Shown here piece by piece: positions 24,299-31,666 of a DNA stretch of 64,000 nucleotides. The position numbers were made by a program, and so were the translations under genes. Source of the stretch: a bacterium. GTDB taxonomy: Bacteria; Cyanobacteriota; Vampirovibrionia; Gastranaerophilales; Gastranaerophilaceae. Each line of letters starts with the position of its first letter. The first letter of the stretch is position 1. The notes beneath the pieces were generated by a model. The model was not told where the DNA came from, did not search any database, and saw only the letters and a program-made list of their open reading frames with translations. The stretch lies in NCBI GenBank assembly GCA_017536545.1, contig JAFXHF010000016.1, positions 124,001 to 188,000 of the forward strand, read 5' to 3'.

Positions 24299-24724
24299 CT
24301 ATTTATAACTTCCGACTTTTCTGCCGTATTTGTCGTATTCTGTAACTCTGCCTGATGAATCTTTTTTGAATGAACCAGTTTTTCTGCCGTATTGGTCATA
24401 TTTTGTAGTTACACCATTAGAGCCAGTTTTGTAACTTCCAGTTTTTCTACCATACTGATCGTATGAATTATAACCACTAGAAGTTTCTCTGTAGGAACCT
24501 GTTTTTCTTCCATATTGATCATATTGATTATAGCCATTAGAAGTCTCTCTAAATGAACCAGTTTTTTGCCCATGTTGGTTATATGTGTTATATCCAGAAC
24601 TTGTTTGTCTATAAGAGCCAGTTTTTCTTCCGTACTGGTCGTAAGAATTTACGTTAGCTTCAGCGATTGCTGTTGTTAATGCTACGAAATAAAAAACTAG
24701 AAATATGGATAAAAATTTCTTCAT
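24299..24724 (-). CDS. Secreted tandem-repeat protein (YDQYGRKTGS repeats)
   Basis: This 141-aa protein has a signal peptide (MKKFLSIFLVFYFVALTTAIAEA) followed by six units of 20-21 residues built on YDQYGRKTGSYR plus a Ser/Gly-rich half ending GYN. The units are nearly identical at DNA level, so copy number may change by slippage. The repeat is rich in Tyr, Gly, Lys and Arg and resembles small surface or wall-associated repeats. No enzyme motif is present. Confidence 0.8.
   Translation of the reverse strand: MKKFLSIFLVFYFVALTTAIAEANVNSYDQYGRKTGSYRQTSSGYNTYNQHGQKTGSFRETSNGYNQYDQYGRKTGSYRETSSGYNSYDQYGRKTGSYKTGSNGVTTKYDQYGRKTGSFKKDSSGRVTEYDKYGRKVGSYK
24300..24645 (-). repeat. Tandem repeats of about 60 bp
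   Basis: Six consecutive units encode the YDQYGRKTGS repeats of the secreted protein. The central units are the most alike. Confidence 0.7.
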
Positions 24725-24873
24725 TCTTTCCTCCTATATTATTATAACGGAATTTATATTATACAGTTCAAATATTTTGTAACATTTTTGTAATTAGCTG
24801 GAATAAAATTTATTTTTAAATTAAAATAATTATCCGAGGAAACGGAAAAGGGTTAAGAAAAGAAGGAGTGAAA

Positions 24874-26586
24874 ATGCAAGTCTCAAAAGTTGGTAGTGCC
24901 TCGTGGGTAGGTACTAATTATGGTCTAAAAAAATCTAATGGTAGTGTTCAAAGGGTTTCAAATCCTTTTATAAATAGCAAGTATAATTTAGCGACGGATA
25001 CGGTTGCGTTTACTCAAAAACAGGTTATTGAAAATCTTTTTATTGAAGATTTGAGTACTTGTAGATATAACGGGAGTTATAATGATTTTAGTGTTAAGCT
25101 TCAGGATATGGTAGATAACACGCATATTACTCAAATTGTGAAGTCAGTTAATAAGCCTGATGAGCCAACTTATGTTATTGAAAACGATAATATTGGCACA
25201 ATGTATATTGCAAAAAATGCAAAACATAAGAATATTAAACCGGGGGTAATTGTCGGAAAAACAGGAATGTATGCGACATTAGAAGTTCCAGGTAGAAAGG
25301 GAAATTTTGTAGTAATTATTCCTTATGGTTCAGAATTAAGTACGGAATCTGGCTTGAAAGTTATGAACAAAAGAACTCATAGACACTTGAATTTTACTGG
25401 CTCGACTTGTACGGTAAACGCTTATTATAAGCCTGAAAAAACAATTAATAGTGTGAATGAATTCATTAGGATGACTGAAACATCTCCTATTTTTGATGAT
25501 GTAAAACGTGCAGATAAAGATTACTCAAAATATTTTCATCCATATATTTTAGCAGGTGGTTTTGGGTCTAGATTGGAGGCTATTAGCCACACCAGAGGGG
25601 ACAACAAACCGTCAACAGGTACACCTATCCCAAATTGGAATTTGATTAATTTCACTTTGTTGAATTTATATCAAGCAAATTTGTTAGATAAAAAAACTGA
25701 TATTGATTTTTGTGTTCAAAAAGAGGCTAATAGTGCTGTAGGATGTTTTGTAACTACATTAGGCTACAAAATTGATATGACACCTCGAGGTTTAGATTTG
25801 GTTAAAGCAGGTGAATCTATTGTTCCACCTGATAAAAATGTCATTATTATGCCATCGGATAATATCACGGATGTTAATTTATCTGAAGCTCTAGATGCCT
25901 TTTTAGATAGGCCAGATGCTGGCATGATGGTCGTAGCTGTACCAGATTACAGATGTTATGGTGGGTTAATTTTACATAATGATAAGAATGAAATTAATAC
26001 ATTTATTACAAAACCTTCAAAAGAATTACTTGATACAGGTGTGGGTCATGTAATCAAAAATGGTAAAGTGCACAAGGACCCTGATGGGCAAGATACATCT
26101 TTAGGTAATGCGTTTATATATATTATCAAACCAGATGTTTTAGACACTATTACAGATATTTATAGAAACAAAATTAGAAATTCTTATAGTGTTTTAATGG
26201 CGACAAAAGGTGGCGATAAGACCATGTCTAAGGAAGAATATTTAAGTGTGATTGAAAGTTTTTGGGATAGAGAAATTATTCCTGAACTTGTACATATGAG
26301 TAATGAAGGCAGATTAAAAGGTCGTGATGGTCAAGATTTGAAAGTGGTTTCTTATGACTCTTTAGATGCTGATTGGTCAGATGTTGGGGAATATTCTTCT
26401 TATTATTCAACAATTAAAAATATCGCAAAAGAGGATAGTTTTACGAAATTACCTAAAAAACTAAAACAAGTGGTAAGTGATAATATTGATAAAAACGTAA
26501 TTTTCAATGCTGATTTTAAAGAAGATTTTAAAGAATTTTTAGGTAATGGTTATGTGAACGGTAATGTAATTGTCGTTGCGAAATAG
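24874..26586 (+). CDS. Sugar-nucleotidyltransferase-like protein with VAFTQ tag
   Basis: This 570-aa protein has a central GT-A nucleotidyltransferase domain: ILAGGFGSRLEAISHTRGDNKP at about residues 225-246 matches the NTP-binding signature of GlgC/RfbA-type enzymes. VIIMPSDNITD and a C-terminal region with DSLDADWSDVGEYSSYY follow, like the sugar-binding part. The N-terminal 200 residues are an unusual extension containing VAFTQ at 44-48, a variant of the SFTG tag. It probably makes an NDP-sugar, but substrate and activity are unproven. The ATG at 24874 is chosen because AAGGAG precedes it. Confidence 0.75.
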   Translation: MQVSKVGSASWVGTNYGLKKSNGSVQRVSNPFINSKYNLATDTVAFTQKQVIENLFIEDLSTCRYNGSYNDFSVKLQDMVDNTHITQIVKSVNKPDEPTYVIENDNIGTMYIAKNAKHKNIKPGVIVGKTGMYATLEVPGRKGNFVVIIPYGSELSTESGLKVMNKRTHRHLNFTGSTCTVNAYYKPEKTINSVNEFIRMTETSPIFDDVKRADKDYSKYFHPYILAGGFGSRLEAISHTRGDNKPSTGTPIPNWNLINFTLLNLYQANLLDKKTDIDFCVQKEANSAVGCFVTTLGYKIDMTPRGLDLVKAGESIVPPDKNVIIMPSDNITDVNLSEALDAFLDRPDAGMMVVAVPDYRCYGGLILHNDKNEINTFITKPSKELLDTGVGHVIKNGKVHKDPDGQDTSLGNAFIYIIKPDVLDTITDIYRNKIRNSYSVLMATKGGDKTMSKEEYLSVIESFWDREIIPELVHMSNEGRLKGRDGQDLKVVSYDSLDADWSDVGEYSSYYSTIKNIAKEDSFTKLPKKLKQVVSDNIDKNVIFNADFKEDFKEFLGNGYVNGNVIVVAK

Positions 26587-26685
26587 TTATTGATTTTTTA
26601 CTATATTTTAAAACCCTAAGTTCAAATATAAATTTATGTAAAATTAAAAAATGTAAATTAACAAATATTTGATTTTGGGGTTTTA

Positions 26686-27624
26686 ATGCGTTGGAAAGAG
26701 GAAAACTTGATGTGTATTAGAAGATTACAATTATCAAGACTTGAAAATAGATTTATTCATAAGGTTTTTACGGCTGATGGGATTTTGAATACCAGACGTT
26801 GGAAAATCGCAGGAAGTGGTTTTTCTCAAAAGTATCTAATGGGACCAAAATTTTTTGAGCTAGGAATGTTGTATAAAACATCAAAAGATGCCGCAAGTGA
26901 AGCTAAGCCTCTTAAAACTTATTTGAAAGATATTGCAAAGTTAGTTGAAATTCCTGTTAAAAGTACTGAAAAAATAAAAACAACTCAACTTCTTGATATA
27001 AATCCGATGAATCACGATACATATTTTATGTTTGTTCATGGAGGTGGTGCAACATTTACTAATAACCATTATCAAGAATTATATAAAAGTTTGTATGGTA
27101 AGGTGGGTGTTTGTGCTCCTGAATTTCGAGGTTATGGTGTAAATTATCAAGCTGGAAAAGGTATGGATTTACGTAAAACAATGTCAGAAGATGTTGATGC
27201 AGGCATACAGTATTTATTAAATAAAGGTATTAAAGAAGAAAAGATAATTTTAATGAGATATTGTGGAGGTTGTACGCAAGCTTTAGATGTCGCTCAAAAA
27301 TATCCTCAGTTAAAACAAGTTATTTTGATGTCGCCATATACAAGTTTTGAATATATTCCTGCGGCTAATTCTTTTGTCACTTATTTAAAGCATCATTCAT
27401 ATAAATCACCAGATTTGCTCTCAGCACAGAATGTTGAGGCTCCTGTTTCAATAATTCATGTTAATGGAGATCAAATATTACCGTTTAAAGCACCATTAGA
27501 GTTGTCTAAAAAAGTTAAAAATTTAAAAGATTTTATAATTATTCAATCTGATAAAACACATTGGTTTAATAGGACAAAGATTGATTTAGTAGGTAGATTA
27601 ATTGACAAATGTATATCATCGTGA
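26686..27624 (+). CDS. Alpha/beta hydrolase with a cysteine nucleophile elbow
   Basis: This 312-aa protein is an alpha/beta hydrolase: FMFVHGGGATFTNNHY gives the oxyanion loop, and EFRGYGVNYQ follows. The nucleophile elbow reads RYCGGC where GxSxG is usual, so Cys replaces Ser. A late Asp (VNGDQILP) and His (DKTHWFN) complete a triad. It lies 32 bases before the RiPP precursor on the same strand, so it may process or load the peptide. A later ATG at 26710 is a possible alternative start. The function is inferred. Confidence 0.75.
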   Translation: MRWKEENLMCIRRLQLSRLENRFIHKVFTADGILNTRRWKIAGSGFSQKYLMGPKFFELGMLYKTSKDAASEAKPLKTYLKDIAKLVEIPVKSTEKIKTTQLLDINPMNHDTYFMFVHGGGATFTNNHYQELYKSLYGKVGVCAPEFRGYGVNYQAGKGMDLRKTMSEDVDAGIQYLLNKGIKEEKIILMRYCGGCTQALDVAQKYPQLKQVILMSPYTSFEYIPAANSFVTYLKHHSYKSPDLLSAQNVEAPVSIIHVNGDQILPFKAPLELSKKVKNLKDFIIIQSDKTHWFNRTKIDLVGRLIDKCISS

Positions 27625-27656
27625 TAGGGTGATTTTGTATAGAAAGGGGTATGCAA

Positions 27657-27989
27657 ATGGTACAAAACATTACGGCTTATGCTGGCAGATCTTCAGCAGG
27701 AAGAAGAGTTACTGCAAGATTGACTCAAATGCCTGCAGAAATTGGACAAAATATTAAAAGTAAAGCAATAAAAGCCGCAGATTCTTGTGGTGGTATGATG
27801 TCTTGGAGCACACATACAGCACCTGTTCAAGCTAAAAAAGTTATCAAAGCCGCAGATTCTTGCGGTGGTATGATGTCTTGGAGCACACATACTGCACCTG
27901 TTCAGGCTAAAAAGACAATTCAAGCAGCAGATTCTTGTGCAGGTATGATGTCTTGGAGTACTCACACAGCACCAAGAGTATTATCTTAG
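27657..27989 (+). CDS. RiPP precursor peptide with three core repeats
   Basis: This 110-aa peptide has a leader of about 37 residues (MVQNITAYAGRSSAGRRV...) then three near-identical 25-residue repeats. Each contains the core ADSCGGMMSWSTHTAP, and the first two are followed by the linker VQAKK. The third repeat has Ala for the first Gly of the core. Each core has one Cys, one Trp and a Ser/Thr/His-rich end, suitable for radical SAM crosslinking. A PqqD-like protein and a radical SAM/SPASM enzyme follow at once. The ATG at 27657 has AAAGGGG at proper spacing; 27651 is too close. I do not know a named family with this core. Confidence 0.82.
   Translation: MVQNITAYAGRSSAGRRVTARLTQMPAEIGQNIKSKAIKAADSCGGMMSWSTHTAPVQAKKVIKAADSCGGMMSWSTHTAPVQAKKTIQAADSCAGMMSWSTHTAPRVLS
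27771..27986 (+). repeat. Three 75-bp repeats encoding the RiPP cores
   Basis: Units begin at 27771, 27846 and 27921, with an exact period of 75 bp. The third is shortened at its end. Units 1 and 2 encode the same 25 residues with few silent changes. Confidence 0.9.
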
Positions 27990-28004
27990 TAAACGATATT
28001 TATA

Positions 28005-28289
28005 ATGAGTAAATTATATAAGTTTAACAAAGATGTTGTGACTCGTTTTGAGAGTCGTATTGAAGACGGAATGTATTTCTTGTTCAATGTTTCTCGTAAT
28101 GAACTTTGGACAGGAAATACATCTTCTTATGTTTTGTTAAATAATTTCAAACGTAAAATGTCTGTAAAAACGGCATTAGATAGTAGTTTTGATAATTTTG
28201 ATTTAGAATATTCAGCTTTGGAAAATATGTTATCAAAACTTGTCGATGATTTGGTAGCTAAAGGTTTTTTAGATTGTTATGATGAGTAA
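28005..28289 (+). CDS. PqqD-like RiPP recognition element protein
   Basis: This 94-aa protein has the PqqD/RRE pattern: a beta-hairpin ending ELWTGNTSSYVLLNNF, a helix, then LSKLVDDLVAKGFLD in the winged-helix end. RRE domains bind the leader peptide and deliver the core to the maturase. The stop overlaps the radical SAM gene start region by 11 bases, so the two are coupled. Confidence 0.82.
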   Translation: MSKLYKFNKDVVTRFESRIEDGMYFLFNVSRNELWTGNTSSYVLLNNFKRKMSVKTALDSSFDNFDLEYSALENMLSKLVDDLVAKGFLDCYDE

Positions 28290-29484
28290 TCTTTCAAAAA
28301 AAGAACAAAATAGAAAAACTTACTTAGACATGTATTTTAAAGGGATTCCGCCTAGTGATGATTTTGTTACGGTGTTTAATTTGATGCATGAAGTTCTTAA
28401 TCGAGGGGATATTCATTTTGTATGTGATTATCCTTTTTCTGTTGTGTGGGAATTAACCTCAGCTTGTAATCTGCGTTGTAGACATTGTTATATTCAATCT
28501 AGGGAAAATGCATATTGTAGCGAGAATGATTTATCTGATGGGGAAATGATGGAACTGGCAAGGCAACTCGTTGATTATTTTGAGGTAAATCATGTTACCC
28601 TTACTGGTGGGGAACCATTCTTACGTAAAAATATTTTAGATATTTTAAATGTACTAAAAGAGTCTAATACTGCAGTTTATATTCAAACTAATGCGACTTT
28701 GATAAATGATAATATAATTGAATGTTTGGCTAAATTGTTGAACCCAAATATAGACGTTATTCAAGTTAGTTTAGATGGTCTTATTTCTGATTCTCATAAC
28801 AAAATTAGGGGTAAAGATATTTATAACAAGGTTGTTGAAAACATTAAAAAAATGATTGAAGCAGGACTTTTTGTTTCTGTAAATTGTACAATGACAAAAT
28901 TAAATTATGATGAGATAGAAAATCTTCTACTTGTTTGTAATGATATGGGGGTTAAAAGGTTTACTGTTACTAAAATGAAGGTAACAATTCCTGAACATGA
29001 AGAATTTGTGCTTACAAATGATGAAAATTTTGAGATGATTTCAAGATTAATTAATCTGAAAATGTCTAAAAATTTACCAATACATATGAACCTAACTTGC
29101 TTCAGTATTATGGAATTATTGAATGATAATGCAGTTAGAACAATGTTAGACGATTATATCGATAAGGATGCAAAATTAAATCCTCCAATTTATATGAATT
29201 GTCATCATAGAGAAAAGATTGCAATTAAGCCTGATGGAAAAGTGTATTTATGTCCAGATGTTGTTTCTCAGAAAGCATTGTTGGGAGATTTTAAAAAGAA
29301 TTCATTAGAAGAGATTTGGGCTACAGTTGATTCTCACCCTTTATATCAATTTAGAGAGTTTTCAAAAATGGAGTGTAAAAATTGTAAGTTTGTATTCTTA
29401 TGCAAAAGCGGATGTATGGGTGAAAATTTCGTTAAAACAGAAAATATTTATTCAAAATCTCCAGACTGTAAATTCTGTTTTTAA
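28279..29484 (+). CDS. Radical SAM/SPASM peptide maturase
   Basis: This 401-aa enzyme has the radical SAM cluster CNLRCRHCYIQ at about residues 63-73 and the SAM-binding TGGEPFLRK. The C-terminal SPASM domain carries auxiliary cluster cysteines (MNCHHREKIAIKPDGKVYLCPDVVSQ, then MECKNCKFVFLCKSGCMGE and CKFCF at the end). Such enzymes install thioether or C-C crosslinks in RiPPs. Coupling to the RRE gene and the adjacent Cys/Trp-core precursor support this role. The exact chemistry is not predictable. Confidence 0.92.
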   Translation: MMSNLSKKEQNRKTYLDMYFKGIPPSDDFVTVFNLMHEVLNRGDIHFVCDYPFSVVWELTSACNLRCRHCYIQSRENAYCSENDLSDGEMMELARQLVDYFEVNHVTLTGGEPFLRKNILDILNVLKESNTAVYIQTNATLINDNIIECLAKLLNPNIDVIQVSLDGLISDSHNKIRGKDIYNKVVENIKKMIEAGLFVSVNCTMTKLNYDEIENLLLVCNDMGVKRFTVTKMKVTIPEHEEFVLTNDENFEMISRLINLKMSKNLPIHMNLTCFSIMELLNDNAVRTMLDDYIDKDAKLNPPIYMNCHHREKIAIKPDGKVYLCPDVVSQKALLGDFKKNSLEEIWATVDSHPLYQFREFSKMECKNCKFVFLCKSGCMGENFVKTENIYSKSPDCKFCF

Positions 29485-29526
29485 AATTAATACTTGCAAT
29501 GAAAAATTTTTGTGCAAGAATAAGTT

Positions 29527-30313: not shown

Positions 30314-31666
30314 ATGAATGCTTATTTAGAAAAAGTTTTAAATGAAACAGAATTAAAAAACATAAATGAATCAGAATATTTACAAGCTGTAAAAGAAGTT
30401 CTTTCTACAATAGAACCAGTTGTTGATGCTCACCAAGAAGAGTATGAAAAAATTGCATTATTAGAAAGAATGGTTGAACCAGAAAGAATCGTAACTTTTA
30501 GAGTTCCTTGGATTGATGATAATGGTCAAGTTCAAGTAAATAGAGGTTATAGAGTTCAATTTAGTTCTTTGATTGGTCCATACAAAGGTGGTTTGAGATT
30601 TCACCCAAGCGTAAACCAAAGTATTATGAAATTTTTAGGTTTTGAACAAATTTTCAAAAATGCTTTAACAGGCTTGCCAATTGGTGGTGCTAAGGGTGGA
30701 AGTGATTTTGACCCAAAAGGTAAATCAGATGTTGAAATTATGCATTTTTGTCAAAGTTTTATGACTGAATTGTATCGTCATATTGGTCAAGATGTCGATG
30801 TTCCTGCTGGTGATATCGGAGTTGGAGCTAGAGAAATTGGCTATATGTTTGGTCAATACAAAAGAATTAGAAACGCATATGAAGGTGGCGTTTTAACAGG
30901 TAAAGATATCAGTTATGGTGGATCTTTAGCTAGAAAAGAAGCTACTGGTTATGGTTTGATTTACTTTATGAGAGAAATGTTAGCTGCTCATAACAAATCA
31001 TTGGAAGGTAAAACAGTTATTATTTCAGGTTCTGGTAACGTTGCAATTTATGCATGCGAAAAAGTTACAGAAATGGGTGCAAAAGTTGTTGCAATGAGCG
31101 ACTCTAACGGTTGTATCTATGATAAAAATGGTATTGATTTAGATTTAATCAAACAAATTAAAGAAGTTGAACGTGGAAGAATTAAAGATTATTTGAACAC
31201 ATATATTGATGCAAAATATATCGAAAAAACTGGTGTTGATTCTCCAATTTGGGAAATTAAAGCAGATATCGCTCTTCCTTGTGCAACTCAAAACGAAGTA
31301 ACACTAAATTCAGCAAAAGTACTTGTTGAAAATGGAGTTTTAGCTGTTGGTGAAGGTGCAAATATGCCTTGTACAATTGAAGCTACAAATTATTTCTTAG
31401 AACATGGTGTTCTTGTAGCTCCAGCTAAAGCTGCAAATGCTGGTGGTGTTGCAACTTCTGCTATTGAAATGTCTCAAAATAGTATGAGATTCTATTATAC
31501 ATTTGAAGAAGTTGAAGCTAAATTAGAAAGAATTATGGTTAATATTTTCAAATCTTGTGCTGCAGCTGCTGCAAAATATAGATGTTCTGGTAACTATGTT
31601 GCTGGTGCAAATATCGCAGCTTTCCAAAAATTAGCAAAAGCAATGCGTGCACAAGGTATTGTATAA
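30314..31666 (+). CDS. gdhA: Glutamate dehydrogenase
   Basis: This 450-aa protein is a hexameric-type glutamate dehydrogenase that aminates 2-oxoglutarate. It shows the substrate site GPYKGGLRFHPSVN, the catalytic lysine region GGAKGGSDFDPKG, AGDIGVGAREIGYMFGQYKR, and the nucleotide-binding fold IISGSGNVAIYACEK. Length and motifs match the NADP-type bacterial enzymes. Ammonia assimilation through GdhA suits an ammonia-rich gut. AGAGGAAG precedes the ATG. It stands alone with its own promoter. Confidence 0.95.
   Translation: MNAYLEKVLNETELKNINESEYLQAVKEVLSTIEPVVDAHQEEYEKIALLERMVEPERIVTFRVPWIDDNGQVQVNRGYRVQFSSLIGPYKGGLRFHPSVNQSIMKFLGFEQIFKNALTGLPIGGAKGGSDFDPKGKSDVEIMHFCQSFMTELYRHIGQDVDVPAGDIGVGAREIGYMFGQYKRIRNAYEGGVLTGKDISYGGSLARKEATGYGLIYFMREMLAAHNKSLEGKTVIISGSGNVAIYACEKVTEMGAKVVAMSDSNGCIYDKNGIDLDLIKQIKEVERGRIKDYLNTYIDAKYIEKTGVDSPIWEIKADIALPCATQNEVTLNSAKVLVENGVLAVGEGANMPCTIEATNYFLEHGVLVAPAKAANAGGVATSAIEMSQNSMRFYYTFEEVEAKLERIMVNIFKSCAAAAAKYRCSGNYVAGANIAAFQKLAKAMRAQGIV

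Follow-up and report, generated by a model that had tools for sequence, protein, structure and literature searches.

A putative three-core RiPP cassette with a stand-alone RRE and a radical SAM/SPASM maturase in Gastranaerophilales, and its clade of related cassettes

What does a bacterium make from a short peptide that carries the same cysteine-containing segment three times, and that is encoded directly beside a leader-binding protein and a radical SAM/SPASM enzyme? This question is raised by a locus of the window, by which we mean the whole analysed stretch of 64,000 nucleotides from a member of the Gastranaerophilales, a group that is common in animal guts and mostly uncultured, and for which no RiPP was reported in the literature searched, most subscription journals being outside its scope. 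Our answer, to which we give a probability of about 0.62, is a compact three-core RiPP cassette in which the RRE would hold the leader, the enzyme would most likely form one thioether per core, and cleavage would yield three near-identical products. That the locus is a RiPP locus at all is strongly supported, while the leader binding site, the bond type, the acceptor residue, the cleavage, the export and the biological role are the parts of this picture that we infer. The features concerned are as follows.

24868-26586: nucleotidyltransferase gene, upstream neighbour of the module
26587-29487, + strand: whole module, as delimited by blastn against the sister species G013 (locus L230)
26686-27624, + strand: alpha/beta hydrolase, candidate processing enzyme (Pfam DLH, 2.3e-6; predicted triad Cys193-Asp262-His292)
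27657-27989, + strand: precursor of 110 aa, in an ORF that opens at 27651
27729-27746, + strand: leader segment MPAEIG, candidate RRE-binding motif shared with clade precursors, chosen partly post hoc
27777-27824, + strand: core 1, ADSCGGMMSWSTHTAP
27852-27899, + strand: core 2, ADSCGGMMSWSTHTAP
27927-27974, + strand: core 3, ADSCAGMMSWSTHTAP
28005-28289, + strand: stand-alone RRE, PqqD-like leader-binding protein (by Pfam matches of homologues and AlphaFold fold)
28279-29484, + strand: radical SAM/SPASM peptide maturase, 401 aa (Pfam Radical_SAM 4.9e-25, SPASM 4.7e-9; model pLDDT 87.9)
28465-28488, + strand: CNLRCRHC, radical SAM cluster motif, residues 63-70
29200-29469, + strand: SPASM cysteines C308 to C397
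29527-30222: unknown 231-aa gene, downstream of the maturase
30314-31666: presumably a glutamate-dehydrogenase-like gene, so named from sequence and general knowledge, after the 231-aa gene

The gene order is thus nucleotidyltransferase, alpha/beta hydrolase, precursor, RRE, radical SAM/SPASM enzyme, 231-aa gene and the presumed glutamate-dehydrogenase-like gene, and the limits of the module within it can be read from the sister species. In G013 the 2.9-kb block 26587-29487 is absent at the same site by blastn, with 47 nt where the module stands in the window; DNA identity of the aligned flanks is 83% and 91%, and the neighbouring genes encode proteins that are 89% and 98% identical to those of the window. 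Since G013 lacks exactly this block, hydrolase included, the hydrolase belongs to the module, and hydrolase, precursor, RRE and maturase are one module that is gained or lost together. The initial annotation had let its span begin at 26686, which is indeed the start of the hydrolase gene, though the hydrolase itself went unmentioned. The hydrolase stop is followed after 32 bp by the precursor start and the subsequent genes are close or overlapping, and such short gaps make a single transcript likely. The ends of the module showed neither direct repeats nor recombinase genes, and promoter-like and terminator-like matches within it were at or below chance level. Just 3' of the module stands an inverted repeat, CTTGCA ... 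TGCAAG (29490-29516), which is also present at the empty site of G013. As for composition, the precursor gene (27657-27989) has 41% G+C vs 31% across the whole module. Outside it, at 24299-24724 on the - strand, a 141-aa protein with a signal-peptide-like start carries repeats of about 20 aa of the type YDQYGRKTGSYRETSSGYN.

The precursor ORF spans 27651-27989, and a start at its second ATG (27657), which is better spaced from the Shine-Dalgarno sequence, yields the 110 aa. The core consensus ADSC[G/A]GMMSWSTHTAP stands in it three times with exact 75-bp spacing (starts 27777, 27852 and 27927), and TRF scored the tandem repeat 27762-27973 at 305; the 110-aa peptide with three repeats of exact 75-bp period that was described initially is thereby borne out, except that the repeats are not all of 25 residues, the third unit being shorter, with RVLS right after the core and CAG in place of CGG. 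Pairwise comparison of the cores gives 2, 4 and 6 synonymous codon differences vs 0, 1 and 1 non-synonymous, and as the codons differ mostly at silent sites, the cores are being maintained at the amino-acid level. The linkers contain KK and are nearly unchanged between units 1 and 2. Trp is present in all three cores, which hold no Lys, no Asn and no acidic residue C-terminal of the Cys; a cyclophane RiPP of the Aro-Xaa-Asn type was considered and rejected, because the core is without Asn. No curated family or searched genome carries the ADSC[G/A]GMMSWSTHTAP core, in agreement with the first impression that it belongs to no known family. When the precursor was searched in 334 genomes of the family, only its own genome came below E 0.01, the others (best 0.02) lying mostly within long unrelated frames; tblastn found no precursor in phages, and the degenerate core pattern gave no match in viral contigs. 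The pattern method found no maturase relatives in genome_contigs or viral_contigs, the maturase profile on genome_contigs returned clade members together with more distant rSAM enzymes, and plasmid matches were all below 30% identity.

Of the two proteins that would act on this peptide, the smaller one alone matches Pfam PqqD weakly and below threshold (E 0.22), and a PqqD match is found in 11 of its 18 homologues (best E 3.6e-7). Its AlphaFold model (pLDDT 95.5) has as top solved structure the TbiB1-leader complex (Z 12.8 over 88 residues, 2.2 A), followed by lasso peptide B1 (Z 11.5), the RRE part of the rSAM enzyme TigE (9.9) and PqqD (9.5). By its modelled fold the 28005-28289 product is a leader-binding domain, namely a stand-alone RRE with a PqqD-like winged helix adjoining the precursor gene, so that the PqqD-like protein noticed there at the outset is confirmed by homologues and fold together. 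The larger protein has the CxxxCxxC motif and the seven-Cys SPASM pattern of two auxiliary clusters (C308-x11-G-x4-C325, C366-x2-C-x5-C-x3-C379, C397), so that no expected cysteine is missing, and the cluster cysteines of both motifs are invariant across 17 clade members. Nearest to its model among solved structures are SuiB (Z 26.8, 326 residues, 3.9 A), SkfB (Z 25.7, 281 residues, 3.0 A) and PqqE (Z 23.1), each of them a peptide maturase, and SkfB is the best sequence match among them (3.2e-30, profile positions 44-231). SuiB makes a Lys-Trp C-C bond, and as it fits as well as the thioether-forming SkfB, the fold does not choose the bond. NirJ1, ScmE, MftC, WgkB, StsB and ACGX are the best NCBIfam matches of the maturase or its clade; the window enzyme scores 124 bits against a curated cut-off of 650 for NirJ1 (the best), 118 against 400 for ScmE, 117 against 265 for MftC, 106 against 650 for WgkB and 97 against 400 for ACGX. 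Being far below every cut-off, it is no member of those families, and no curated NCBIfam family claims the clade members.

More can be learned from relatives. Maturase profiles were searched over overlapping samples of the family (383 genomes), the order (383) and the phylum (244), and at least 28 maturases at 24 loci in 20 genomes of one bacterial family of the Gastranaerophilales form the clade of the window enzyme, these counts being lower bounds because scoring was limited to the top few candidates of each genome. Strong matches were confined to that family. The clade, delimited by searches that started from its own members, is split by one branch (support 88/90) from 41 other rSAM enzymes of the same searches, which we regard as moderate support, and the window maturase is a long single branch within it (0.97) with a best identity of 34%. 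The maturase is accompanied at 23 of the 24 loci by an RRE, either as its own gene or as a fusion, and by a short ORF whose C-terminal core bears Cys; the exception, L010, is cut by a contig end. The order is precursor-RRE-maturase in the window, L153-L159 and L200, and precursor-maturase-RRE in L162-L168, L171, L172 and L201; two maturases flank the RRE in L169 and L170, and two RRE-maturase fusions are found in L160 and L161. The cores vary greatly, including CGIDQCAI, CSDYEPIDYCSPLFP, CGEGNNYEYFIHLA, GCGCEDWCTPLLSF, YRQC and others, so the core is not the family-defining trait that it was first taken for. Cys is nonetheless in every one of them, and many have no Trp. For 14 single-core precursors that differ in sequence, the final 30% of the chain holds 30 of the 34 Cys (at most 22 in 10,000 shuffles), and only six of the 14 have a Trp there. 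Maturases lacking the window's precursor, named beforehand as a point against the RiPP reading, do occur, but they adjoin other short Cys-core precursors of their own wherever the contig allows, and the RiPP reading is therefore strengthened. Genes, fold, motifs and this family-wide association together sustain the proposed RiPP locus of RRE, rSAM-SPASM enzyme and repeat precursor.

Three cores inside one gene are found among the clade loci only in the window member, in one genome. At L200 (G445:C155, 7570-8375, - strand), one RRE-maturase pair is preceded by a tandem of three precursor genes, whose leaders are related and whose Cys cores differ. Different clade cassettes may also share a genome, G253 carrying L160 and L165 and G309 carrying L161 and L162, and one of these cassettes has two RRE-maturase fusion genes for one short YRQC-ending peptide.

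As regards the leader, the pattern [LMT]P[AKSER]x-hydrophobic, which was picked once the leaders had been viewed, matches 8 of 15 vs a shuffle mean of 1.05 (maximum 6 in 5,000). A blind search of width 5 recovered the same segment (117.0, where 20 shuffles reached at most 110.6), an earlier one of width 7/9 was marginal, and at widths 6 and 8 the result did not exceed chance. The evidence for a common leader motif as the RRE-binding site is suggestive. In the mechanism that we propose, the stand-alone RRE would hold the leader, probably via MPAEIG, and present the precursor to the radical SAM/SPASM maturase, which would work along the three near-identical cores, most likely placing in each one thioether that joins its only Cys to a residue close by in CGGMMSWSTH; cleavage in the leader and the KK-containing linkers would be made by the Cys-type hydrolase or by resident peptidases such as M16, which the genome encodes. 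Three near-identical cores per chain might raise the yield, or be cleaved into three near-identical products, and the product would likely be a secreted bioactive or signalling peptide. The hydrolase may take part in precursor processing. In the alignment its nucleophile site reads RYCGGC vs GHSMGG in resident paralogues, that is, the catalytic Ser has become Cys with Asp262 and His292 kept, and close relatives of it are rare, as 60 searched genomes gave only paralogues of 34-39% identity, in its own genome and two congeners. At L169 (G437:C16, 11573-13374, + strand), M16 (PqqF-like) and M14 peptidase genes follow two maturases, and are candidates for leader processing.

The thioether is favoured because the Cys is constant across the clade cores, and it is on this point that other bonds have to be weighed. 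The Trp-Ser-Thr type of C-C link offered as one option in the initial annotation is weakened and was dropped, as Trp is not kept across the clade. The same pathway might still form a C-C (or C-N/C-O) bond at the Trp or His of SWSTH in the manner of SuiB, with the Cys used otherwise; SuiB is tied for the closest structure and all three window cores carry Trp, but many clade cores do not, Cys is in every one, and the window core has no Lys, so we consider such a bond unlikely. A doubtful but somewhat more plausible view is that the cores are modified and never separated, the product being the 110-aa or leaderless chain, for instance a metal-binding or surface-active scaffold. In its favour, neither a dedicated exporter nor a clear leader peptidase is present within the module, the genome has no match to a C39 domain, and the linkers of units 1 and 2 are nearly identical; the hydrolase as part of the module speaks against it, as do the relatives, where a single core is C-terminal to the leader as though each core were a product.

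Two further readings depart more widely from the three-core cassette. In one, the peptide would be trimmed to a few residues for a redox cofactor such as mycofactocin or PQQ, and it is true that MftC and PqqE models score against the maturase and that one relative locus has the PqqF-like M16 and M14 peptidases after its maturases; however, the scores are far below the curated cut-offs, other cofactor genes are absent, and cores so diverse are ill-suited to a shared cofactor, which leaves this reading very improbable. In the other, the repeat ORF is not the substrate and the maturase acts on another protein. Within this genome the peptide and the enzyme are indeed linked by gene neighbourhood only, but that neighbourhood recurs at 23 loci with unrelated surroundings, the ribosome-binding site of the precursor ORF is good and the protein sequence of the repeats is maintained, and we give this reading hardly any credence.

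Beyond the window, it is tempting, though still quite speculative, to see in the clade a lineage-specific RiPP class of the Gastranaerophilales, with RRE-guided maturases, fast-diversifying Cys cores and an undescribed bond, in which new versions might arise through duplication of cores inside a gene, as in the window, or of precursor genes, as in L200. Related maturases that are each paired with an RRE of their own, and with Cys cores that differ strongly, make a natural series for leader binding versus core choice, and with three near-identical cores in one substrate, per-core modification and processivity are readable by mass spectrometry.

Compared with known systems, an RRE with an rSAM-SPASM enzyme and a short precursor, as well as repetitive precursors beside rSAM-SPASM enzymes, are already known kinds. 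Streptide (SuiA/SuiB) is alike in that SuiB is the top structural neighbour of the window maturase, and unlike in that the window core is without Lys, has a conserved Cys and goes with a separate RRE gene. The sporulation killing factor likewise has an rSAM-SPASM peptide maturase and a small Cys-containing core, and its enzyme SkfB is described as making a thioether (PMC6231123); in the window a gene of its own encodes the RRE, three cores stand in tandem within the precursor, and the thioether is a prediction. In sactipeptides a SPASM enzyme links Cys by a thioether to an alpha carbon; Cys is the constant residue of the clade cores. Ranthipeptides link it to a non-alpha carbon, to Asp or Glu in the case of PapA/PapB (PMC9413430); no acidic residue follows the Cys in the window core, though acceptors beyond Asp/Glu may serve. 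TvgA/TvgB combine a repetitive precursor with an adjoining rSAM-SPASM enzyme, and in an uncharacterised network cluster Asp-Cys motifs recur as many as six times (PMC9062424); both resemble the window cassette in layout, and the latter has another core, ADSCxGMMSWSTHTAP, and other accessory genes. What seems to be new against all of these is the maturase clade, the spread of its cores in the Gastranaerophilales, the three-core member and the Cys-type hydrolase in the module.
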